Origin: Patagioenas fasciata | Lineage: Eukaryota; Chordata; Aves; Columbiformes; Columbidae | NCBI RefSeq assembly: GCF_037038585.1 | Contig: NC_092520.1 | Span: forward strand, 55,952,501-56,016,500 | Direction: 5' to 3' | Length of the DNA stretch: 64,000 bases | Shown: positions 3,420 through 61,312 of the stretch, piece after piece | How the letters are laid out: each line of letters begins with the position of its first letter | Position numbering within the stretch: position 1 is the stretch's first letter | Notes under the pieces: generated by a model | What the model was told of the DNA's origin: nothing | What the model saw: the letters and a program-made list of their open reading frames with translations, nothing else | Databases searched by the model: none | Translations under genes and position numbers: made by a program

Positions 3420-4108
3420 ATGGAGAAGGACTTGGGGGTACTGGTGGATGAAAAGCTGGGCATGAGCTGACAGTGTGCACTCTTGCAGCCCAGAAGGCCA
3501 GTTGTATCCTGTGCTGCATCAAAAGCAGCGTGGCCAGCGAGTTGATGGAGGTGATTCTGCCCCTCTGCTCCACTCTGGTGAGACCCCATCTGAAGTCCTG
3601 TGTCCAGCTCTGGAGCCCTCAGCACAGGAAAGACATGGACCTGTTGGAGAGGGGCCAGAGGAGGCCACAAAAATGATCAGAGGGCTGGAACAGCTCTGCT
3701 GTGAGGACAGGCTGAGAGAGTTGGGGTTGTTCAGCCTGGAGAACAGAAGGCTCTGAGGAGACCTTATTGTGGCCTTTCAGTACTTACAAGGGGACTGTAA
3801 GAAAGATGAGGACAGACTTTTAACAGGGCCTGTTGCAACAGGACAAGAGGTAATGGTTTCAAACTAAAAGAGGGCAGATTGAGACTAGATATATGGAAGA
3901 AACTTTTTACAGTGAGCATGGTGAAACACTGGATAAGGTTGCCTGGAAATGTTGTAGATGGTCCATCCCTGGAGACATTCAAGGCCAGGCTGGACGGGGC
4001 TCTGAGCAACGTGATCTAGTTGAAGATGTCCCTGCTCATTGCAGGGGGGCTGGACTGAATGACCTTTAAAGGTCCCTTCCGATCCAAAACATTCTATGAA
4101 TCTATGGA
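3420..4108 (+). mobile_element. CR1 LINE fragment (3' end)
   Basis: Begins inside the RT C-terminal region (frame encoding an eroded version of DLGVLVDEKLGM) and runs through the SLVRPHLKSC and ERHG/LLERGQ segments to the 3' end with gttgaagatgtccctgctcattgcagg and a short tail cattctatgaatctatgg. Several frameshifts and stops, so coding ability is gone. Ends about 0.97 kb downstream of the OXGR1-like stop. Confidence 0.92.
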
Positions 4109-5078
4109 TCTGGCACATTTATGCATCCATTCATTTCTCACCTCTGGACTAAAATTAATCCAGAAATCCCAGGTAGTAGTGTGGAAAACCTTTACAGGAG
4201 TGGTCTTGTATTATTGCATCATTAATATTCAGGTGATCACTGAAAGTACTGAACAGGGTTTTATTGCATAAGCTCCCCTTTTGGCCACCTCTGGAGGGTG
4301 ATCCATCACACTCTGTGCTAGAGCTGGGCCTCAGCTGTGTAGATGTAGGAATGAACATTTGGGTCTGTGTCTGATCTACTTACCTTTACAACCAATGGAG
4401 AGAAACAGGCACTTCTAGGTCATGATTCATCTTGTCCAAATGTAGGCATCAAGAATAATTAGGTGAATCACACTCTAAACCTGCTTATTTCTCTCCACTA
4501 GGATGGGAAATTATAAAGGAAGGACAAGGTGATTAGCAGATATGCGTACACCTGCTCTGTCAGTATCTCCAGGGAGGTGAGATGAACCTCCTCCAGGCCT
4601 AAGACAGGTGTGATAAATTGCCCTCTGGAGTCTCTTATGCCCCTCCATTGCTTCGGAAACAAGTCAAAGGCAGACACCTAGCTTAGACTAGGCACTTAAC
4701 TTCTAAGTTACTAAAATTAAATTAAATTATTCCCACCCTGAATCTGTATCTCTCACTAACAAGCTACTATTTTTTTTTTTCTGGAACTATTGACCATTCT
4801 CTAAAAGAGGTATCAAGGATCCTAGAAGCAAATATAGAGAAATTTCTGAGAAGTTCCACATAGACTTTTTTTAACATTTTATTTAAAGTTTTTTATTTTA
4901 AATTATAAGTTTTCTCTTCTGATGATCAGTTTGTAACTCCAAAACACAGAGCAGATTAACTGTCCTTTGTCATTGACAGGGTTAACCTGAGTACTCCGAT
5001 GGCAGGGAGGTTGTGCCTGACTGATTGAAGATGGGTTTGGACCCTTCTTCCATAACTCTTTGATAGCATCAATCTCTT
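4109..5078. other. 3' flank of the OXGR1-like gene
   Basis: Contains the probable 3' UTR of the minus-strand gene, with candidate poly(A) signals near 4880-4897, followed by unique sequence down to the CR1 that ends at 4108. Confidence 0.6.
4878..4897 (-). terminator. Candidate poly(A) signals of the OXGR1-like gene
   Basis: Two AATAAA hexamers on the minus strand (TTTATT at 4878-4883 and 4892-4897) lie about 180-200 nt past the TAG stop, in AT-rich sequence. Spacing is reasonable for a short 3' UTR, but the hexamer is common by chance in such DNA. Confidence 0.35.
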
Positions 5079-6053
5079 CTACTTCAGGCTCTTGTTTGTC
5101 TGAAACTTGAGGAGTGAGAGGATTGCCTGCTGGAAGTTGTCTCCCGTCACTACATAGAGCAGTAAATTTCCAAAAGTATTTAACGCTGCGAAAGGTTTAG
5201 CTATAGTAAACATAAGAAGGATCTTGTTCTTCAAGTGGCAGCTGACTGGTCGTACTCGCAGATCCAGCTGAAGCTCTCGAAGGATGTGCAAGGGGAGGAA
5301 GCACACATAGAAGACCACCAAGAGGACGATGGCGAGTCTGCGGGCCTTTTGTTTGTAGGAAGCCTGTGTCTGGGGCCCAGTAGACAAGTTGTAAATAATG
5401 AACACATAGCAAAAAGTGACCGTCAGCATGGGCAAGAAGAAGGCAAACGTGGTCAGCAGCCAGTTATACAACCGACTAGTGTCAAGGACCTCAGCAGTAG
5501 CCAGGTCTGGGCAGATTGTCCTGTTCTGTGTCTCCCTTGTGGCAATCAAGATGCTCAAGGGGCTGATGGCCACCAGGGAAATAATCCAAATTACTATGCA
5601 AGTCACCACGGCCCATTTCCGGTTTTGAACACAAAGGCATTTAATTGGATAGACAACTACAAAAAAGCGGAAGATGCTGAAGGAGCTGAGGAAGATAATA
5701 CCACTGTACATGTTGAAGTAGAAACAAAAGTGAATGAACTTGCACATTAAGTCTCCAAATACCCAGTTATTTCCATTAACAGAGTAGTGTATAAAGAAAG
5801 GAAGTGTGGCTATATATAATAAGTCAGTAATAGCCACATTTAACATAAAGATGGTGCTGCTTTTCCAGGGCCTCATCTTGAAAAAATAAACAGAAATTGT
5901 CACAATATTCCCTGGGAAGCACACCAGGAAGATTAGGCCATAAAGAACACAGAGATAGAATTTCACTTGTAAGAAATCTTCATTCTTGCAGCTTGTCAAA
6001 GGGTCTGCATGGCCTGGCAGAGCAGTAAAATTGTTGGTGCGTTCAGATGCCAT
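5079..6053 (-). CDS. 2-oxoglutarate receptor 1-like GPCR (OXGR1 paralog)
   Basis: Intact 324-aa rhodopsin-class seven-transmembrane receptor in one exon, ending in TAG. Approximate TM spans: 33-58, 67-90, 104-130, 148-170, 198-222, 238-262, 277-303. Visible landmarks are GN in TM1 (48-49), LNVAITD in TM2 (71-77), Cys104-Cys181 for the TM3-ECL2 disulfide, a probable second Cys22-Cys272 pair, the block MRPWKSSTI, and NTFGNLLLY in TM7. Sequons lie at N8 and N177. The family match is to OXGR1 (Gq-coupled plasma-membrane receptor for 2-oxoglutarate in mammals), and it is clearly paralogous to the gene at 28190-29143. Of the four basic pocket residues of human OXGR1 (R110, H114, R261, R288, from memory), this protein has H108, Y112, R259 and K286. 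The DRY position reads FRF (129-131 region) rather than FRY. The start is the first ATG of the frame, 16 nt after a candidate splice acceptor. The open frame and conserved core argue for a working gene; the ligand is unknown. Confidence 0.93.
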   Translation of the reverse strand: MASERTNNFTALPGHADPLTSCKNEDFLQVKFYLCVLYGLIFLVCFPGNIVTISVYFFKMRPWKSSTIFMLNVAITDLLYIATLPFFIHYSVNGNNWVFGDLMCKFIHFCFYFNMYSGIIFLSSFSIFRFFVVVYPIKCLCVQNRKWAVVTCIVIWIISLVAISPLSILIATRETQNRTICPDLATAEVLDTSRLYNWLLTTFAFFLPMLTVTFCYVFIIYNLSTGPQTQASYKQKARRLAIVLLVVFYVCFLPLHILRELQLDLRVRPVSCHLKNKILLMFTIAKPFAALNTFGNLLLYVVTGDNFQQAILSLLKFQTNKSLK

Positions 6054-6069
6054 GTTTGCAGAAATCTTC

Positions 6070-6071
6070 CT
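6070..6071 (-). other. Candidate splice acceptor before the OXGR1-like ATG
   Basis: On the minus strand the sequence reads ...gctttag then gaagatttctgcaaacATG, placing an AG 16 nt before the start codon. The pyrimidine tract before it is weak. Known OXGR1 genes keep the coding frame in the last exon with untranslated exon(s) upstream, and the paralog here has an AG at almost the same distance. Inference only; no transcript is visible. Confidence 0.35.
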
Positions 6072-6782: not shown

Positions 6783-8434
6783 GTACCCCTGAGACCCCGG
6801 ATGAAGCCAGGTTAATGGAGGAGTTTGCTTTAGTCGATGAGGACTGGGTTAGGGAACAATTAAGTAGTCTGGACGTCCATAAATCCATGGGTCTAGATGG
6901 GATGCATCCGCGGGTGCTGAGGGAGCTGGCTGAAGTCATTGCTAGACCGCTATCCATCATTTTTGCCAAGTCTTGGGAAACGGGAGAGCTGCCCGAGGAT
7001 TGGAGGAAAGCAAATGTCACTCCAGTCTTTAAAAAGGGCAAGAAGGAGGACCCGGGTAATTATAGACCGGTCAGCCTCACCTCTGTCCCTGGGAAAGTAA
7101 TGGAACAGCTTATCCTTGGTGTCATCTCAAGGCACATCAGGGATAAGAGGGTCATTAGGGGCAGTCAGCATGGCTTTACCAAGGGTAAGTCATGCTTGAC
7201 CAACCTCATAGCCTTTTATGAGAATGTAACAAGGTGGATGGATGATGGCAGAGCGGTGGATGTGGTCTACCTTGACTTCAGTAAAGCCTTTGACACAGTC
7301 CCTCACAGCATCCTCACAGCTAAATTGAGGAGGTGTGGTCTAGACAATAGAGTAGTGAGGTGGGTTGCAAACTGGCTTAAAGAGAGAAGCCAGAGAGTGG
7401 TGGTCAATGGTGCGGAGTCCAGTTGGAGGCCAGTATCTAGTGGAGTGCCTCAGGGGTCAGTACTGGGGCCAATGTTATTCAATATATTCATTAATGATTT
7501 AGACGAGGGAATTGAGTGTACTATCGGCAAGTTTGCTGATGACACTAAGCTGGGAGGAGTGGCTGACATGCCAGAAGGCTGTGCTGCCATCCAGCGGGAC
7601 CTGGACAGGCTGGAGAGTTGGGCGGGGGATAACCTGATGGAATTTAACAAGGGAAAGTGTAGAGTCCTGCATCTGGGCAGGAACAATCCCAAGTTCCAAT
7701 ATAGGTTGGGGCATGACCTATTAGAGAGCAGTGTAGGGGAAAGGGACCTGGGGGTCCTGGTGGACAACAGGATGACCATGAGCCAGCACTGTGCCCTTGT
7801 GGCCAGGAAGGCCAATGGCATCCTTGGGTGTATTACAAGGGGGGTGGTCAGTAGATCGAGAGAGGTTCTCCTTCCCCTCTACTCCGCCCTGGTGAGACCC
7901 CATCTGAAATATTGTGTCCAGTTCTGGGCCCCTCAGTTCAAGAAGGACAGGGAACTGCTGGAGAGGGTCCAGCGTAAGGCAACAAAGATGATGAAGGGAG
8001 TGGAGCATCTCCCTTATGAAGAAAGGCTGAGGGAGCTGGGGCTCTAGTTTGGAGAAGAGGAGACTGAGGGGTGACCTTATTAATGTTTATAAATATATAA
8101 AGGGTGAGTGCCACGAGGATGGAGTCAGGCTCTTCTCAGTGGCAAACAATGATAGGACAAGGGGCAATGGGATCAAGCTGGAACACAAGAGGTTCCACTT
8201 AAATTTGAGAAAGAACTTCTTCTCAGTGAGGGTAACAGAGCACTGGAACAGGCTGCCCAGGGAGGTTGTGGAGTCTCCTTCCCTGGAGACATTCAAAGCC
8301 CGCCTGGACACATTCCTGTGCGACCTCACCTAGGCGTTCCTGCTCCAGCAGGGGGATTGGACTAGATGATCTTTTGAGGTCCCTTCCAATCCCAAACATA
8401 CTGTGATACTGTGATACTGTGATACTGTGATACT
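6783..8434 (+). mobile_element. CR1 LINE, 5'-truncated, with RT domain and 3' tail
   Basis: About 1.65 kb of CR1 non-LTR retrotransposon, the longest and best preserved copy in the window. It carries most of the reverse transcriptase frame, the usual 3' end with the phrase ttggactagatgatc, and a tail of four ACTGTGAT octamers at 8400-8431. The 5' part of the element (ORF1, endonuclease and start of ORF2) is missing, as is normal for CR1. No clear target site duplication is seen, which is also usual. It lies about 0.73 kb upstream of the OXGR1-like start codon, antisense to that gene. Confidence 0.95.
6815..8333 (+). pseudogene. CR1 reverse transcriptase (ORF2 fragment), one frameshift
   Basis: A 410-codon open frame (6815-8047) encodes the RT domain of CR1 ORF2. 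It has [13 protein letters not shown] near residues 26-38, the first catalytic motif [10 protein letters not shown] at 151-160, [12 protein letters not shown] at 208-219, and the catalytic FADD box at 240-243, followed by the thumb/C-terminal part. A TAG at 8045-8047 ends it. The rest of the C-terminal region continues in another frame at 8049-8333 (RRLRGDL through LDTFLCDLT). Compared with the matching site of the CR1 at 3724-3743, two bases are missing here, which explains the shift. Its 5' end is truncated, so the listed start is only the first ATG in the frame. Not a host gene. Confidence 0.93.
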
Positions 8435-28189: not shown

Positions 28190-29143
28190 TCACCTTGAAA
28201 GAGAGAGGATGGCCTGCTGGAAGTTACCTCCAATCACAACATAAAGCAGCAGGTTGCCACATGTGTTGAGTGCAGCCAGTGGCCGAGAGATTATATAGAT
28301 GGAGTGGATTTGCTTCTCCACATGACAGCTGACGGGACACAGCCGTAGTTCAACCCGAGCCACCCGAAAAACATGGAAGGGGAGGAAGCACACATAGAAG
28401 ACCACCAAGAGGACGATGGCAAGTCTGCGAGCTTTTTGTTTGTAGCAAGCCTGTGTCTGGAGCCCAGTAGCCAAGGTGTAAATAATGAGCGCGTAGCACA
28501 GAGTCACCATCAGCAAAGGCAAGAAGAAGGCAAACGTGGTCAGCAGCCAGTTATACCACCTGATTGTGCCCAGGTTTTCAGAGCTGGTAAGGTCCAGGCA
28601 TAAGGATCTGTTTTCCTCCTCTTTTGAGGAGATCAAGAAGTTGATGGGGCTGACAGCTGCCAGTGAGATCACCCAAACTGCTGCGCAAACTACCGCTGTC
28701 CACCGCTTCCTCTGGGTGTGAAAGAACCTCATAGGGTGGACAACCACCACGTAGCGGAAGGCACTGAAGCAGGTGAGGAAGAGGATGCTGCTGTACAAGT
28801 TGAAATGGAAGCCAAAGCGGATGAACTTGCACATGAATTCACCAAAGACCCAGTGCTCCCCACTGGCATAGTAGTGTATCAGGAAGGGAAGGCTGATGAG
28901 GTAGAGCAGGTCTGTGAGTGCCAGGTTCATCATGATGATGGTGCTGCTCTTCCAAGGCCTCATCTTGAAGCTGTAAACACAAATTGCAATGACGTTTCCT
29001 GGGAAGCCTACCAGGAAGACGATGCTGTACATAACAGGGAGGTACAAAGTCTTCAGGCCGACTTCCACATCAGTGCAATTGGGAAAATCACCTTCAGTGT
29101 CTTGCCAGGTGGTGGGCTTGGCTAAGTCGTCACTTCTATGCAT
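28190..29143 (-). CDS. OXGR1: 2-oxoglutarate receptor 1 (OXGR1/GPR99)
   Basis: Intact 317-aa class A GPCR in one exon, ending in TGA. Approximate TM spans: 34-58, 69-92, 104-131, 149-171, 199-222, 240-262, 279-304. Diagnostic OXGR1 blocks include YLPVMYSIVFLVGFPGN, KMRPWKSSTIIMMNLALTD, SLPFLIHYYASGE, KFIRFGFHFNLYSSILFLTC and SRPLAALNT. Cys105-Cys182 form the TM3-ECL2 disulfide and Cys23-Cys273 a likely second one. Sequons are at N22 and N178. The basic ligand residues known in the family are all present: R109, H113, R260, R287. In mammals OXGR1 senses extracellular 2-oxoglutarate through Gq in kidney and other tissues, and leukotriene E4 has also been proposed as a ligand. The C-terminus stops right after helix 8 at AILSLSR, about 20 residues shorter than the 337-aa human protein as I recall it. 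It lies 22 kb upstream of its paralog in the same orientation. A 15-nt 5' leader separates the ATG from a candidate splice acceptor. Confidence 0.95.
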   Translation of the reverse strand: MHRSDDLAKPTTWQDTEGDFPNCTDVEVGLKTLYLPVMYSIVFLVGFPGNVIAICVYSFKMRPWKSSTIIMMNLALTDLLYLISLPFLIHYYASGEHWVFGEFMCKFIRFGFHFNLYSSILFLTCFSAFRYVVVVHPMRFFHTQRKRWTAVVCAAVWVISLAAVSPINFLISSKEEENRSLCLDLTSSENLGTIRWYNWLLTTFAFFLPLLMVTLCYALIIYTLATGLQTQACYKQKARRLAIVLLVVFYVCFLPFHVFRVARVELRLCPVSCHVEKQIHSIYIISRPLAALNTCGNLLLYVVIGGNFQQAILSLSR

Positions 29144-29158
29144 GTTTGTTTCTTAGCG

Positions 29159-29160
29159 CT
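29159..29160 (-). other. Candidate splice acceptor before the OXGR1 ATG
   Basis: The minus strand reads tttctctcctccttaag followed by cgctaagaaacaaacATG. The pyrimidine run followed by AG makes a good 3' splice site 15 nt before the start codon. It suggests that the 5' UTR begins in an exon further upstream (higher coordinates), so the promoter is not directly next to the ATG. Confidence 0.45.
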
Positions 29161-30512: not shown

Positions 30513-30813
30513 ACTGGTATGGAGACAGATTTTTTAGCAGGGCCTGTTACAATAGGACAAGAAGTAATGATTTTAAACTAAAAGAGGGGAGATTCAGGCT
30601 GGATGTGAGGAAGAACTTTTTTTACAATGAGGGTAAAACACTGGCCCAGGTTGCTTGGAGAGGTGGTAGATGCCCCACCCCTGGAGACATTCCAGGCCAG
30701 GCTGGGCGGGGCTCTGAGCAACCTGATCTAGTTGAAGATGCCCGTGCTCATTGCAGGGGGTTGGACTAGATGACCTTTGAAGGTCCCCTCCAGCCCAAAC
30801 CATTCTATGAGTT
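30513..30813 (+). mobile_element. CR1 LINE 3' fragment
   Basis: Begins at gagacagattttttagcagg and continues through acactggcccaggttgcttgg, cctggagacattccaggcc and gttgaagatgcccgtgctca to a 3' end cattctatgag. Same subfamily by its tail as the copies at 3420, 17311 and 32790. Confidence 0.92.
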
Positions 30814-32789: not shown

Positions 32790-32998
32790 GGTTTCAAACT
32801 TTATAATAAGGGTGAGGAAACACTGGCACAAGTTGCCCGAAGTTGTAGTAGATGGCCATCCCTGGAGACCTTCAAGGCCAGGCTGGACGGGGCTCTGAGC
32901 AACCTGATCTAGTTGAAGATGTCCCTGCTCATTGCAGGGGGTTGGACTAGACGACCTTTGAAGGTCCCTTCCAACCCAAACCATTCTATGAGTCTATA
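32790..32998 (+). mobile_element. CR1 LINE 3' fragment (short)
   Basis: Last ~200 bp of a CR1: gggtttcaaactttataata, gaggaaacactggcacaagt, then ctggacggggctctgagcaa, ttgaagatgtccctgctcat and the tail cattctatgagtctat. Confidence 0.92.
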
Positions 32999-35865
32999 AA
33001 CTGGCAGGAGTTGCTGAATGCTCTGAAGGAGAAAGAAGATACCCATGCTGTCCAAACTGGGAGCTTGGTGGGACAAGCTACCCCTCCTGCAGGGAAGGAC
33101 CTGAGTCTGAGATGAGCTGGGATTGCACCACCAGGAAACAAGCAGGGTCTTGTGACTGGCAGAGATATCAAAGGCCATGTGCTTGTGAAGGTAACCTGGC
33201 TGCAGGAGGGTTTTGCTGGAGAAAGGGATTGCATGACTGTCAGACAACTATCCTGACCATATTACATGTGTAAGAAGCTTTTCTGCTAGCATGACTTGTC
33301 CAGAGGTCAGAGAAATAAAGAAGCCTAGAAAGGAAGTCAAACTATGTACTCTCTCTGCACACGGTTTGAAAAAATACCCAGCTTGCTGTGTGATCTGGAG
33401 TGTTTTACAGTCCTCAAATATCCAGGCAATAAAGCAGAATAAAGATTAGCACTTCCTTGAATGTGTTGGACAACCCTCAAGAGGGGGCTAGCAGAAATCT
33501 CTTCTCCCTTTGAAGAGGGAAGAAGGGCACAGGCACCTTCTGGAATGCCCTACAGCAGAGCTTTTACTTCCTTTGCATGTGAACTGCAAGGAGCACAGGC
33601 CTTAATTACCAGGGTAATTAAGGTGTGGATGTTAAAGATTTTTTGGGTGACTTAGCTTTCCGGGGTGTGGTACCAGCTGAGACTACAACATTGTGGAGAT
33701 TTCCTATAGAACCAATATTTGCATATTTTGCTTGATCTCCACCTTCCTTTTCAACAGGTTTTGATTCTTGGGATAACTGTGCTCCATTGACTGTCATCTT
33801 GTTTCAAAGCAGTGATCCTTACACCAGTTTCAGGCTTTTTTTTTTTCCCTCACAAAGAAGAAAATACTTTCAGATGCATAAGCATTCCAGATTTGATTTT
33901 GAATTAAATATTTGCAAACTTCTGTGAACAGGTAGGAAAGTTATCATCTTGAGAGGGAAATGTTTAGATGAGGCTGAAAAGAACTTGAATGTTTTCCAAC
34001 ACTGAACATAATTTCATATCTTGTTTGAAGCTCTTATTTACTTTCTTATGATGATAAGAGGTGTGAACCTGGAAACATGAGCAATTATGTACTGCATAAT
34101 GTAATGGTGAATCAGGCTTGAATTATTTAGTAAATATAACTTTTAAAATGATTGCGCAACTGTCGTGTTTCTTTACCTGATGCTTTCAGTATTTGTCATC
34201 TTCATATGAATGACTTTCAGTTTATTGGTCGTATGTAATCTGTTCTCCCTAACTCTTCCTGGTGTAACTTTGGGTACATCAACCTTAAATGTGAACATTA
34301 ATTTTGGACTCCTAAATACAAATATTCAGAAATAGACTGGCAGTTGTCAACATATCCCTGAGCAACCACTAATATGAGCCACCTTTGTTTATAGGAAGAG
34401 TTGAAACTACTTTTGACCGTGTGACTAGCTACCAGTTAATAGTAATTTCAGTACTCTACATCATGGAAAGTGTGCATTCTGCAAAATGCAAAAGACCCTT
34501 TGCAAAGGGCATATGGGGAGCCATGGAGAGACCAGGTACATGATGCTGTGTCTTCTCAGTAGTCCCAGTTTATCTCTACACACATAGATTAGGAAGTTTC
34601 TGCATTTTATTTATAAGTTCCTGTATACAGGATATCAAGTTCATTGCTCGTTTTTTTTTGTGTGTGTTTTTTGTTGTTCTTGTTTTGTGTTGTTGTTTTG
34701 TTGTTGTTTGTTTGGGTTTTTAAAAATTAATTGTTTTATATTTGTCTGCTCTGGTATGATAATTTTGAGTAAGAATGGATATTGTTCTGGTATTATGATT
34801 CAAATTATATTATTTATACATAAATACGGGATCATTACTTGAATATTTCATCTCAGACTTAGTGTTTGTAGTTCAGGAAAAGAGTTTGAAAAATTGTGAG
34901 GAGCTGGAAAAGAGCTTTGGGAGTGAGTGGAGTACTGGGAGATATTGTGTCCTGTCTTGAGAGACTTTCGAGGCTCTAGGAATTCTCTCTGGCTAGTTTA
35001 TTCAAGAACAGATTTAAACGGGAAGGAGTGATAGCCATGGTCATATCCATGGGAAGAGACTCCTGGCATCAGCATAGCTGGAGCTATGCCAATCCAGGCT
35101 GCCAGTGAAGCATAAATATTTCTTGGTGATGCTGGATAGCTACTAAAACTAATCACCTTAGTAATATGGTAGATTCTTAGACTCTGGAATTTTTAAACCT
35201 ACATTGAGTATTTTTTGCATAAAAGTTGGTACAGGTGTAGAGCACCATGAGACGATACTGTCATGCAGCTTCACGGGAGAGATATAGGTTTTAAAGACTA
35301 GAAGTACCTCTAGAAAACCCAGTCTAAAGTATTGTGTGCCCAAGGCCATATGTACCCAAGGCCATAGGATTTATCTCAGAATTTACAATAACTTGTATTT
35401 AGTGCCTTTTTTCTTTTTTTTTTTCTTAATAGGAGGACAATCTTGATTTGAAGAGAGAGGAAGAATCCTCTTATTCCTTTGACAACTTGTTCTAAAGGTG
35501 GATCATGCCCACAGTTGAAATCATGTCCTTAACTTTAATACAATTCTCTAATTTGCGCTTCCAGCCTTTCAACTTCTTCATACGAGTCTCTGCTGTAAGG
35601 AGAGAGAAACACATTTAAGCAACGGCTTTTCTGGTTTTGTGGAAGTATTTAAACATTATAATCAAATCACCTTTCATACTTCTTCCTGATTAGTTTGGTA
35701 GCATAGGGCATCCTACAATAGTATCTGGGCTTCTCCAGCCTATCCTTTTTCCTCCCGTTGGCTTTTTTAGGTAGAAAACAAGGTCCTTCAGCCTCCATCC
35801 TGGATTTCTGCATGTTGGGCAACATGGCTGGAGCCACATCTCCGCCTGTGCTACCAGGCTTGCAG
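32999..35865. other. Intergenic, nothing recognised
   Basis: Unique AT-rich sequence with the T/G-rich tract at 34650-34735; no gene or mobile element recognised. Confidence 0.65.
34650..34735. repeat. (TTTTG/TTG)-rich low-complexity tract
   Basis: T/G-rich stretch with repeated TTGTT and TTTTTTG units and a short TG run. Confidence 0.85.
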
Positions 35866-40866: not shown

Positions 40867-43083
40867 TTGCTACACAAGATGTTGTACCCACACCTGGTTC
40901 TGAATCCCTCAAGGTATATTGAATCCTTAATGAAAGGTGTATCGAATCTTTAATAAAAGGTATGTTTCCGGGCTTTTTCTTGATACAGTTTTGGGCTTTT
41001 TTTAGCTCAGTCTTTGAAATGTGTGTTGGAACCTCCTGAATTGTGCTGAAGTGCCCATCTCATTAAAAACTTGCTGTTTTGATACATAAACCAGTGGAAA
41101 CTTAACAGTAAATTTGGACACTGAGGGACTGAAGGAGAGTTCCTTGGCCAACCGTGTTATGTGTGAAGAACAAACCAAATCCACTCCAGTGTCTGTGACA
41201 GTGTCTGGCATCAAAAGATGCCGGCCTGGGCAATGCAAACACATGCTGCGTTCGTCGCTGCTCAACATCTCTCTGGCAGCTGTGCAACCACCTCCTTGCT
41301 GTTATCCCCCAAGCACTGAGGACTGCAGCTTTCAAAAGGGTGCAGAGAGATTCATACCACAATTGTGTGTGTCACTATGCCTCAGTTATTATTAATAGCT
41401 TGTTCAGTTTCTCCTTGAGTATCTTGGGAGACCACACTAGTGCCCAGGCCTGCAAAGCTGCAACCTGTATGAGCATCTGTGCCATTTGTTTGAGCCAAGC
41501 TCCCTGAACAGAAGTATTAGATACTCTCACAGGAGTGACAATTCCTGACATACATCGTGATAAACTTCATGGTTTAGAGATGCATGGAAATCACAGCAAT
41601 TTCTGATTTCTGCTGGGATTCTGAGTGCTGGTCTCCTATTAAAATCAGGTGCTCTCCCAAATAGTAATAATTTTAAAGACTTCACATACGCTAATTTTCC
41701 TTCAAGAAAATAAATCCACCGTTTCGATATATCGACTACATAAATGCTTCCAGTTATCTCTCGATCCCTAGAAGCTGGATTTTACTCTACAGGACCAGAA
41801 GGTGTTTACAAGAAGAGACACCAATTGTCTTTATTATTAATGTCTGCTGAGGATATGCGATTTCAAGAGTGAGGCAGAATGGAGGAATTACACAACTGGG
41901 ACATCACTTGCGAGAGATGCTGAAGGCGAGACATTTGAGTAATACACATCTGCCACAGACTCCTCTCCTTCTGAATTCCACCCTATACCCACCCCAACAG
42001 AGATATCAGTCAAGCATTAAATGCTTGTTTTTAGAATAATATTTGAAAAAATCTAAGATTTATAAAATTAGCAGTCTTATTAATAACTCTAGTGAAGACA
42101 GTGACAGAGATGTATGTCAGTCTGACAGTTCTTTAATTTCTCCAGAGAAGTCAATGTACATCTTCTTTCATAACAGCAAGTCACATCCACCCAGGAGATT
42201 GCACAAGAGAATGGTAGTGTGTCAGGAGAAAATAAATTGTTGGCAACTGTACCAGTCTAATTAAACTAAGTGATTTAGGTAACATCAAGGGAAACCTCAT
42301 AGATCCAGCCATATGCACGATTTGTGAATTGTATTTGGCTGAAAAGGATTATTTGGAAATAGGATGCTGTCATGGGCGAGAAACTGAACAACAGCCTGCG
42401 GTGACTCTAGATAACTGGGGTTTATTTAAGAAACAGTAACATAAGAGTTCTGCCCTATTTTTTGAGAGTAGTCCCTTGCTGTTTCCACCACCACAGTCAC
42501 AAGGTCTCACTATCCATCTCAGCAAGGATGTTGCTGCTGGCCCAAGATGGTCAAGCAGAAGGTCAGGTTGATTTATGCTTTGCCGATCTTCATTAACAGT
42601 CTCAGGCATTATAAACTATGAGCTGTCTGATCTCCTGCATCTTCCCCCACTGCTGGGTTATTTCCTCGGGCAAGATCTTTGCTTTCTTTTTTTCAGGCTC
42701 CCCATTTCTTTCTGAGTCAACCAGTTCATTTTGGGAAGCCCTCTCTTTGGCACCAGCTCTTCTTTCCAGCACCCTGAGCCTAATTTTTGCAGTCTAAAAG
42801 TCTGTGTGGAGAAGCACAACATGTGATCAGCCTCCTAACTGCAGGGTTTGTCTCATGTCTATTTATTAACTGGAAGATTTAGGATGTACAATGTTTGTTC
42901 AGTTCAGGTGGGATGAAAATTTACAACATACTGGTTGCAGCTGGAAAGCAGCAGGCTTCAGCTTGAGAATTTGGAAGTTCAGTTTCAGAAAGACACCCAC
43001 CCTGACATATACATCCAGTTTTCTACTGCTTCTTTGCATTCACAATAAATTTTTTTTTGGCTTGTTCTTGGTTGTTTGTGGAG
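40867..43083. other. Intergenic, nothing recognised
   Basis: Unique sequence between the CR1 at 40532 and the polypyrimidine satellite. No recognised gene. Confidence 0.65.
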
Positions 43084-43416
43084 TTTTTCTTTTCTTTTCT
43101 TTTCTTTTCTTTTCTTTTCTTTTCTTTTCTTTTCTTTTCTTTTCTTTTCTTTTCTTTTCTTTTCTTTTCTTTTCTTTTCTTTTCTTTTCTTTTCTTTTCT
43201 TTTCTTTTCTTTTCTTTTCTTTTCCTTTTCTTTTCTTTTTTCTTTTTTCTTTTTTTCTCTCCTCTCCTCTCCTCTCCTCTCCTCTCCTCTCCTCTCCTCT
43301 CCTCTCCTCTCCTCTCCTCTCCTCTCCTCTCCTCTCCTCTCCTCTCCTCTCCTCTCCTCTCCTCATTTTTTATTTTCCTTTTTTTTTCTTTTCTTTTTTC
43401 TTTTCTTTCCTTTTTA
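43084..43416. repeat. Polypyrimidine satellite (TTTTC)n-(CCTCT)n
   Basis: 43084-43223 is about 28 tandem TTTTC units. 43224-43257 is a transitional T/C-rich piece. About 43258-43364 is about 21 CCTCT units. From 43084 to 43364 there is not one purine on the plus strand (281 nt). T-rich sequence with a few A residues follows to 43416. The long low-complexity open frames over it (SFLFF/RGEER repeats) are artefacts. Confidence 0.98.
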
Positions 43417-44992
43417 ATTATTCCTGACATCTAAAGCACAGAAACTCAGGATACTTCATTTTCAATCCAAGATTCGACACCAGGTTTGCTATGGTCAGTC
43501 TGAAGCGTTGTCACTAGGTGGTAATGTCTTCATCCTTAAAAAACCCCAAACTCACACAACCCTCTTTTGGAGATACAGACTCAAGCATTAATTATTTCTG
43601 AAAGGTTTATGTGTTATGGAGGAATCAGAAAAAATATGGCTGCTCTGAAGTAAAGCCTTTGATTATCAGCTCACTGCACAGCCACATGCCTGTCAGGCAA
43701 ACAAAAGATGTGGGAGATTTATGCTGGCCTCACACTTTCCTTTGCTGCAAGCAGAAGTTTGGTAGGACAGGAAATTGGGCTTTTTAGACATATTTTGGAT
43801 CTAATATGTGATTATAAAACATCACGCAAAGGAATGCGGTTTTTTATGTTTCTTGAAACAGAACTATTATACCAGACCGTAATGCCTTTATAGACGCCAT
43901 ACGTTAGCTATACACACATTTACCGTGCTGAAGGGCAATAGTTTTGATTTCTGTGTACTCAATTTTAGGATATTAATACAGAGCATAAAACAGCTTCTCA
44001 GCAACCAAGCTTCTCAGCTTGGCTGTGCCATCTCCCAGTTACAATGATTTTCCACTCAACAGCAGCTCATGATGAGAGTGTCTGTCCTTACCTTCATGAT
44101 GCTTCAGTGAAGCTCATCATCAGGTGCTGGGCAGCTGAAGCGCTAAGGTAAGGATCATGACCTGTCCTGATTGGAGATGGGACACTGAGAGCCCTCCATG
44201 GTGAAGGTAAACCTCACCCCTGGAGGAGGGTTCCTGCAGGCTCCAAAAAGGCCCTAGGACTGACTTACTGAAGACCCTCGTTGCCCTGGATATCATCAGT
44301 GCCAGTGTCACCAGCTCGATCCCAGTACACGTACTTGGCTCTTCACTTTGACTTCAGATGTGAGTGCATAAAACTGATTAAACATCACACACACACAAAA
44401 CCAAAAAACAACAACGACAACAAAACACTAACAAAATTCATTTTAGAAACTTCATAGTAAGATAATTACCTTGGACAGAAAAATTAAACAAATCGGTATG
44501 TAGCAAATGGTGTCCAGGCCTTTTGGGCAGTGTTCAGGCAGCACAGTGGTGCCTATGGTGCTATATGAATACTTAACAGATTATACTTCTGGCAATAATT
44601 GTGAGGGCTTTCCTTCCAATGTCAAACCGTGTTTTTGTTTCAAAATAAAGAAAAAAAAAAGATCCTAAAACATATCTTAATCCTATTTCCCTTTTCACGG
44701 TGTACACTCAACAAGTAAACGAAAAGAAAGTGAAATAAGGTGTAATATAAAACATTAAACTATTTTTTTTTATCATCAGCACAAGCAAAAGAAATAAAAT
44801 GCTCTACTATATTACCAAAAGCCTCCCAAAAGCTGACCTGCCTCTGCTAGCTTTTACCCAACAGCTCAAGGAGAGCACAAGCGCCTGTCCTAAGGAAGAG
44901 TTATTTTCACCTGACCCAGCTACTTGAACCATATTTCTAAGGCTGACTGATTGCCAGTCTCTCCTGCAGTACAGCTGCATGTTGTTAAAAAG
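43417..44992. other. Intergenic, with an unexplained segment
   Basis: Mostly unique. 44040-44340 is GC-richer than its surroundings and could be a decayed exon, retrocopy or repeat, but I cannot identify it. A short CA/CAA tract lies near 44387-44430. Confidence 0.55.
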
Positions 44993-58800: not shown

Positions 58801-60370
58801 AGGGTATACATAATGTCAAATACTGTTAAAGGAAACAAACAGTAAGAATTATGCGAAAATTAGATCCTACCACTATCTGTTCCCCAAAGTTACCATTTAA
58901 CAAAATATTAATTAATTTGACTGCCCTTACAAAGACATGGATTATTTGCTGCAATATATGGTGTCCAAAGAAAGGCAAAACTAACCCTTATAGCCTATAT
59001 AGCTTAATTCAATAGCTTATTGGTGTTACTGGCAGCCAGCAGCCCAGTAAATTGTAGTGCCCATTCACTTTGCCATATTCATATTCATGACATATTCATT
59101 CATGTTTTTAATACCTGAACTTTTCTACCTTCGGGACTTTTTGCAAGTGGAGGGGCGAGTGAGAGAGTAGAGACATGAGTGAACTTACATATTCACAGCT
59201 GAATTGGGTTTCCTGTATCCTAGACTGAGTGTGGTACCTTATTTTGTGGGCAATTAAAATCTGCAGCTATGTGAGTTGTAAGACCATGTGAGTGAGGCAA
59301 GTTACATTTTGCTATTTCTCCTCCAAGATAAACAGAATTGCAATAGGTTTGTACAACTTGTCAGCCAAAAATGCTGTACAGCAATAAAGGAGCAGGACTC
59401 CCAGGTTGTGCTGGAGGCTCTGACAGCTCATCCGATGAGCACAAAGCTGTCTGAAAGAAAACAGAGATGAAATAAACACCTAGCTATTAAGGCATGCTAG
59501 TATGTTTCTCGGACTTTTAAATCCGATAATCACTGAACTTTTTTGGAAGAAAAATTTGCAGACTGTCTGCAATGATTAGCCTCTCCCGACAATTTCTCTG
59601 CATGTGACTGGAGGATTTAATGTGTTTTATATACCTCCTTCTCATATCCTCTGACTGTAAGACCTCCCTGAACTCTAGAAAAACATCAGAAGAGACAAAA
59701 GGAAAAGATAATATACCTTTCATGTTATTTATTTCTTACAACTCAAGAAGCTTTTGTTGGTTATTAGTGTTACAATAATCTACAACATTCTTAGAGAAGC
59801 TTCAGGTTGACAATATCTATCTCTGGCAAAAGTATATGTAAGATGCGTTGAGGTCATTTTTAATGAATGAAAATGGGGCTTTCATAGATCTTGTTCTTTC
59901 AATGTACACATTTCAGAATTCTATTAGAAAAGACTACTTATGGGAACACAGTTTGAGTTAGTTCCATCAGCATTAAAGCAAGATTAATTTTTCCTTTTTT
60001 TTTTCCTTTTTTTTTCAGAATTGGTACCATTTTCAAGCATGTAAAAAGCTTTTCTGCCTGCTAACAACTTTTTACTTTCTAATGAACCTATGACTGACAG
60101 AAAGTTGAGCTTTTCTTTCCTCCCACTAATACCACCATTGTCTGCGCCTTGCTCACCAGCATTGTGTATCAGTCACAAGCTGACTCCTTTGTGCCTTTGT
60201 AAAGTATCAATTTAGTCAGCACTATCTACTGGGCAGACAATGCTGCCGGTAAACGTGAACACACACAAAATCCTGGAGCATTAGAAGCCCTAAAAACAAT
60301 GGTTTGGCTAAGAGGCCTGGACGTTTGGGAGGTGGCAGCCCATCAGTGCCTGGGGCCTGCATGGTCGGAG

Positions 60371-60500
60371 GCAGCAGGCAGGCAGGACAGGCTGGGTGCC
60401 ATGGCATTGGAGGGAGTGGCCAGGCCAGCAGGCAAGACAGGCTGGGTGCCATGGTGTTGGAGGGAGCGGGCAGGCCAGCAGGCAGGATAGACTGGCTGCC
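60371..60500. repeat. 50-bp minisatellite
   Basis: GC-rich tandem repeat with a 50-bp period. The element ggcaggacaggctgggtgcc at 60381 recurs as ggcaagacaggctgggtgcc at 60431 and as a more changed copy ggcaggatagactggctgcc at 60481. About two and a half copies are visible. Confidence 0.9.
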
Positions 60501-61312
60501 AGGGCTGGCCAGGACTCAGGGACAGCTGGGAGTTCAGGCAGCATCTTCGTTCTGGCTGCCGGTTGGGTTACTTGGCTGGAAAAACAACCATGCCATCCAG
60601 ATCTGCCTGCCAACCTGCCCGCTACTTGACTATGTTGATATTTGACCGGACTGACACATTCCCAACATCTATTTTCTTTTCTTTTTTTTTTTTCTTTTTG
60701 CTTGATCAGGTTTTTCCAACAGTAAACTGATTTCTCTGCATTAAAAAGCAAAACAAAACAAAACACCACCCAAACCAAATCCTGTGGTATGCACAGAATG
60801 CAACAGCTCAGTCACTGCATCCCACGCTCCAAGGAGTCTGTGGCTCCTGGTACCTGCAGATGCAAGTTACCTCCCCATCAGTCTCTAGGCAGACTTTAAA
60901 AAGGGAGTTTAGACCAACTTGGTCTCTCCTTTCCCGTTTTCCTGCCTGGGCTATGGTCAGCAGAAACACCCAACCCCCATGGCACCAGAGAGGGGGAGGG
61001 CAGCAGCTCTGTGGGGGTTCTGTGTCTCTGGATGAAATTGTCCCTTTGTTAGTCCAAAATAGCTCAAATTGGGCAACTTTCCAAGCATGCAGTGAAAGAC
61101 GTCTGTTTGAGACAGTGCTTAGAGCAGGCTGAGGATGGAGGACTGAAAAAGAGGTGCCTGACTGGCTGGGTTCCCACCGGAGTGATTAATGTAATGTTGC
61201 TGGGATTTTACCGCATTATTAATGAACTGTTAGGGTGCCTGGAGCACTGGAAAAACATCTCTGGAAAATTATTACTAAAAATCTGAATTCGTGTATTGGA
61301 CAACCTTTCATA

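Follow-up and report, generated by a model that had tools for sequence, protein, structure and literature searches.

OXGR1 connects energy metabolites with acid-base balance, muscle, mucus clearance and inflammation. Copies of the gene are reportedly arranged in tandem in zebrafish, and a paper on Atlantic salmon is said to contain the phrase 'oxoglutarate receptor 1-like'. The available part of PMC13372822 (2026) describes human OXGR1 by cryo-EM in four complexes. In these, one carboxylate is coordinated by R110, H114, D185 and Y284 and the other by R288, Y40 and Y93, the linker is touched by F113 and L89, and the water network overhead consists of D185, Y93, H281 and E97. According to the same part, nearly all pocket mutations abolish activation, and potency is ligand-dependent and set by surrounding residues. 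The pocket is treated there as conserved across vertebrates, with R110 and R288 almost fully conserved and Y93 (2.64) and H114 (3.33) diverging in birds and fish. In the accessible text of PMC10014103, R110A and R261A abolished the calcium response of human OXGR1 to itaconate or 2-oxoglutarate, and H114A and R288A dramatically impaired it. The GPCR cartography of PMC6504862, in its available sections, names a number of sauropsid receptors close to the P2RY and CYSLTR branches but no OXGR1 paralog. Among the literature matches listed from open-licence PMC, judged by title and the start of the abstract, none concerned a bird or reptile OXGR1 paralog, and OXGR1 together with gene conversion gave no match in the open-licence PMC literature.

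Two OXGR1-type genes in tandem

The window, that is, the whole stretch of 64,000 nucleotides of Patagioenas fasciata DNA which was analysed, possesses two OXGR1-type genes. They are tandem neighbours on the same strand.

5079..6053, minus strand: gene A, OXGR1-like receptor with altered pocket; intact open reading frame of 324 aa; 7tm_1 domain; match to human OXGR1 at E 2.4e-107
28190..29143, minus strand: gene B, OXGR1 with canonical pocket; intact open reading frame of 317 aa; 7tm_1 domain; match to human OXGR1 at E 3e-137

The 7tm_1 domain of A scored 147.3 bits against a Pfam cut-off of 30.5, which places the protein among the rhodopsin-like (class A) receptors. Human OXGR1 was the top match among solved structures for both proteins, far above P2RY1 and SUCNR1, and identity to it over 294 positions was 54% for A and 68% for B. 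Both proteins aligned with human OXGR1 ungapped from the N-terminus through TM7. As the alignment has no gaps from TM1 to TM7, the assignment of pocket positions is secure. In a seven-row tree, A, B and human OXGR1 formed a single clade (100/100) separate from P2RY1, SUCNR1 and the CYSLTRs. The OXGR1-type motifs F128-R129 and N296-L297-xx-Y300 are present in A, and the third letter of the FRY motif is Phe (FRF). FR at 3.49-3.50 and NLxxY are thus common to A and human OXGR1, along with Y1.39, F3.32, D45.52 and R6.55. The original prediction had placed an intact paralog at 5079-6053, leaving its strand unstated, and had described the neighbour at 28190-29143 as keeping R109, H113, R260 and R287. 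The paralog is indeed intact, and the alignment with human OXGR1 confirmed the four residues of the neighbour.

Within the 64-kb window, tblastn with both proteins found no third full copy, the remaining matches being short with E values of at least 0.14. In collections of viruses, bacteria and archaea, none of the pattern matches (58 in viral and 53 in genome contigs) was confirmed as a relative by tblastn. The phage records gave no tblastn match, and an Rfam scan at the gathering threshold was empty. A pattern look for flanking MBNL-type C3H fingers returned a single match without further support, from which no synteny was established.

Residues of the ligand pocket

The positions of A that bear on ligand binding are given below with their states in B.

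5781..5783, minus strand: Ser91 of A (2.64); Tyr in B and human
5730..5732, minus strand: His108 of A (3.29), CAC; Arg CGC in B
5718..5720, minus strand: Tyr112 of A (3.33), TAC; His CAT in B
5277..5279, minus strand: Arg259 of A (6.55); kept
5208..5210, minus strand: Phe282 of A (7.35), TTT; Tyr TAT in B
5196..5198, minus strand: Lys286 of A (7.39), AAA; Arg CGG in B

His108, Tyr112, Arg259 and Lys286, the four residues named in the original prediction, correspond to human R110, H114, R261 and R288. Alignment with human OXGR1 put the changed ones at 3.29, 3.33 and 7.39 as claimed, in agreement with the labels 3x29, 3x33 and 7x39 of the numbering given in the available part of PMC13372822. The claimed loss of charge at 3.29 and 3.33 holds for 3.33, which has lost its base, while His at 3.29 is still protonatable and Lys at 7.39 is basic. 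As to the grouping of four basic positions as dicarboxylate-binding, the available text of PMC13372822 does not count R6.55 as a carboxylate contact, although R261A abolished the response in that of PMC10014103.

Of the seven residues which hold the carboxylates in the human cryo-EM structures, five are changed in A and none in B. In human numbering the changes in this shell are Y93S, R110H, H114Y, Y284F and R288K, two of which (Y93S at 2.64 and Y284F at 7.35) were absent from the earlier list. Both carboxylate sub-pockets are affected, SP1 being without R110, H114 and Y284 and SP2 without Y93 and R288. Further pocket changes beyond that list are L89F (2.60), L117M (3.36), F257L (6.51) and I285T (7.36), and the pocket mouth carries R264Q, H281L and E97N. 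Only D185 of the four residues forming the water network above the carboxylates is retained. Y40, F113, D185, L186, H258, R261 and A292 are kept in A. The polar carboxylate network Y1.39, Y2.64, R3.29, H3.33 and R7.39 is complete in B and reduced to Y1.39 in A, which therefore lacks the residue set of a dicarboxylate receptor of the OXGR1/SUCNR1 type. SUCNR1, a rhodopsin-like metabolite receptor on the same branch as A, differs from it in having R3.29, H3.33, Y2.64, Y7.35 and R7.39. P2RY1 carries these five residues as well, so that both receptors agree with B and human OXGR1. As P2RY1 and SUCNR1 share the states of B at 3.29, 3.33 and 7.39, A is the derived copy. The two positions reported as divergent in birds and fish in the available part of PMC13372822, 2.64 and 3.33, are both changed in A and neither in B. 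Since A is also without R110 and R288, that statement on divergence does not simply describe it.

Enrichment of changes was analysed by one-sided Fisher tests on those sites where B equals human, the question being whether A differs. A differs at 5/7 carboxylate-shell sites against 55/193 others (P 0.027), a test which is partly non-independent because three of the five changed residues prompted it; two of the other four shell sites are changed. It also differs at 6/9 direct contacts against 54/191 others (P 0.023) and at 11/22 sites of pocket plus vestibule against 49/178 others (P 0.030). With the list of 21 pocket residues, 19 of which were tested as B differs from human at two, the comparison was not significant (9/19 against 51/181, P 0.074). 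Among the activation and structural sites (17 listed, one dropped since B differs from human) A differs at 2/16. The comparison with these sites gave P 0.011 for the shell and P 0.030 for the pocket list. By count, the enrichment of changes in the pocket is a modest signal. The 14 kept activation and structural residues include F3.49-R3.50, N7.49-L7.50-xx-Y7.53, F6.48, F6.44, P5.50 and the cysteines. Around F3.49, two packing residues of A differ from human (I71F and I144V), and B differs too at 144. AlphaFold2 run on A with a two-row alignment (A and B) yielded no usable model (mean pLDDT 39.5, pTM 0.26).

The shared TM5-ICL3-TM6 block and the age of the duplication

A and B are near-identical from TM5 through ICL3 to TM6, a feature missed in the original prediction. 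Judged by its silent sites, this block is shared through gene conversion.

5289..5474, minus strand: gene-conversion tract in A, aa 194-255; segment score reached by 0/5000 permutations; dS 0.21 against 1.92
28376..28561, minus strand: matching tract in B, aa 195-256, probably the donor, as GC3 is out of line with the rest of the gene in A and not in B; dS as for A

From the end of ECL2 the tract runs through TM5 and ICL3 into TM6 as far as proline 6.50, and the pocket differences resume at 6.51. Between A and B, dS was 0.21 (0.08-0.39) inside the tract and 1.92 (1.18 to saturation) outside. Protein identity of the pair was 0.818 inside human positions 196-250 and 0.544 outside, while human OXGR1 against B showed no such jump (0.618 inside, 0.695 outside). 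At three of four penalties the top shared segment covered codons 196/197-257 with 16-17 mismatches in 180-184 bases, and at the strictest penalty it was codons 243-257 with 0 mismatches. In codon permutations using all bases, with boundaries that were not preset, the score was reached by 0/5000 at any of the four penalties. With silent codons only, it was reached by 12 and 16/20000 permutations at penalties 2 and 3 and by 1320/20000 at penalty 5. Silent codons are shared at 37/44 positions inside and 66/123 outside (Fisher P 0.0003, with the boundaries 196-250 picked post hoc). Protein conservation alone was considered as the cause of the common block and set aside, because the silent codons within it are shared too.

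GC3 of A was raised in the tract (47/62 inside, 121/232 outside, P 0.0008), which suggests B as the donor, although GC-biased repair might produce an equal pattern; in B the values were 45/62 inside and 156/232 outside (P 0.45). Codons 196-257 hold 11 residue differences between the two proteins, with B equal to human at 7 and A at 0, so that most of the later change fell on A. What was copied is the mobile half, which contacts the G protein; the ligand-contacting half had no part in the exchange.

Outside the tract, A is equally distant from B (identity 0.544, or 54%) and human (0.552). The seven-row tree of these positions grouped B with human at 79/83, and the alternative of A with B was not rejected (AU P 0.113). 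The tract-only tree grouped A with B at 82/89, and there the alternative of B with human was not rejected (AU P 0.245). Neither of these two branches was starred. Derived states polarised by P2RY1 outside the tract were shared by B and human at 9 sites, by A and human at 4 and by A and B at 2 (9 against 2, P 0.065); inside the tract A and B shared 4 and B and human 0. A stands apart at 54 sites outside the tract and B at 20 (P 1e-4), which fits greater age or faster change, and the branch of A was the longest of the three OXGR1-type genes there (0.46, the others 0.24 and 0.22). Taken as sequence evidence, these comparisons lean, without reaching significance, towards a duplication older than the bird-mammal split with loss towards humans. 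A recent, fast-evolving duplicate confined to birds is not rejected, given the AU result for A with B outside the tract; the grouping favoured there is B with human, at only 79/83. In a bolder version of the older date, A would be an ancient amniote receptor, present before the bird-mammal split and lost towards humans, with its own non-dicarboxylate ligand, conversion keeping the coupling half and selection guarding the pocket. We consider this possible but rather doubtful.

Function of gene A and its surroundings

The reading which we prefer, with restrained confidence, is that A is a working receptor of the OXGR1 family in which the ligand end has moved away from a dicarboxylate site while the signalling end is still OXGR1-like. 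The stop of the conversion tract at the point where the pocket differences resume speaks for it. Against it stand the wide pocket list at only P 0.074, the change of FRY to FRF, and the published alanine mutants, which in the available parts of the papers are harsher than the R-to-H and R-to-K swaps found in A. A receptor of this kind would signal like OXGR1 (Gq) through the TM5-ICL3-TM6 block. It would not bind 2-oxoglutarate or itaconate tightly and would respond to them weakly or not at all. Arg259, Lys286 and perhaps His108 may hold a different anion, probably a larger or less charged one.

The nearest competing explanation is that A has remained a dicarboxylate receptor whose potency is lower or shifted, suited to higher concentrations or to a different dicarboxylate. 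Because two of the three changed basic positions became other bases (R-to-H and R-to-K), weaker or shifted dicarboxylate sensing has room, as His 3.29 and Lys 7.39 keep the positive charge. The seven pocket residues kept in A, and the dependence of potency on ligand and surrounding residues in the available part of PMC13372822, point the same way. Yet both carboxylate sub-pockets are hit and the water network is down to one residue of four, and we regard this explanation as unlikely. A drift towards a cysteinyl-leukotriene-like lipid ligand agrees with Tyr 3.33 and Arg 6.55, which A has in common with CYSLTR1 and CYSLTR2, with the Thr or Ser that those receptors carry at 3.29 instead of Arg, and with YVNMY in CYSLTR2 as compared to YFNMY in A. 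At 2.60, however, both CYSLTRs have Arg where A has Phe, and at 7.39 they have Leu where A has the base Lys. They also form their own clade (100/99), while A groups with OXGR1 and so does not descend from them, which makes such a drift very improbable.

Another possibility is that constraint on the duplicate A is relaxed and its ligand binding is in decay, with the open frame and the converted block as leftovers. The length of the A branch outside the tract fits this, and the common block, as it came from B, need not reflect selection on A. Inside the tract, dN/dS between A and B was 0.395 (range 0.14-1.18), compatible with 1 and not distinguishable from it. Outside the tract it was 0.157 (bootstrap range 0.00-0.27), an average over both genes and branches with dS near saturation and not a test of the paralog branch. 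In neutral simulation the frame of A stayed free of stops in 57/1000 copies at 0.1 and in 6/1000 at 0.2 substitutions per site. Since so few copies stayed open, neutral drift would be unlikely to leave a frame this long intact. With the low dN/dS outside the tract, the stop-free frame of 324 aa and the retention of 14 of the 16 activation and structural residues, A does not look like a pseudogene. Its decay appears unlikely on these data, and relaxed constraint as the whole explanation we hold to be improbable. The original prediction of a new or altered ligand rather than decay is supported in part: the intact frame, the signs of constraint in dN/dS, the shell changes and the largely kept activation residues agree with it, and the choice of a new ligand over decay is inferred.

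If A is intact with a different pocket, it would represent an undescribed metabolite or lipid receptor in these species. The label 'OXGR1' in birds may then cover two genes, and the pair would offer a natural pocket change on one signalling chassis, open to direct assay.

Some other features of the window were observed around the two genes. Directly before the ATG of both genes stands CAAAC, with an acceptor-like AG 15-16 bases upstream (6054-6070 and 29144-29159); these features, read by eye, are compatible with a common upstream intron of A and B. A reverse transcriptase open reading frame of 410 aa (RVT_1) lies at 6815-8047 on the plus strand, upstream of A and oriented against it, with about 0.76 kb between it and the A start codon; it is presumably part of a CR1 LINE. 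The window thereby fits avian DNA, as CR1 elements are associated with birds, though they are also found in other reptiles. Repeat copies at 3811-4115, 30523-30809 and 32817-33006 are 83-87% alike and lie near both genes; they are likely a transposable element, outside the gene duplication. At 43085-43364, TTTTC and CTCTC pentamer arrays stand side by side and yield a spurious 178-aa open reading frame (42891-43427). A 50-base minisatellite of 2.6 copies with 85% matches occupies 60378-60505, within a 156-aa open reading frame (60308-60778) which is non-coding in appearance.
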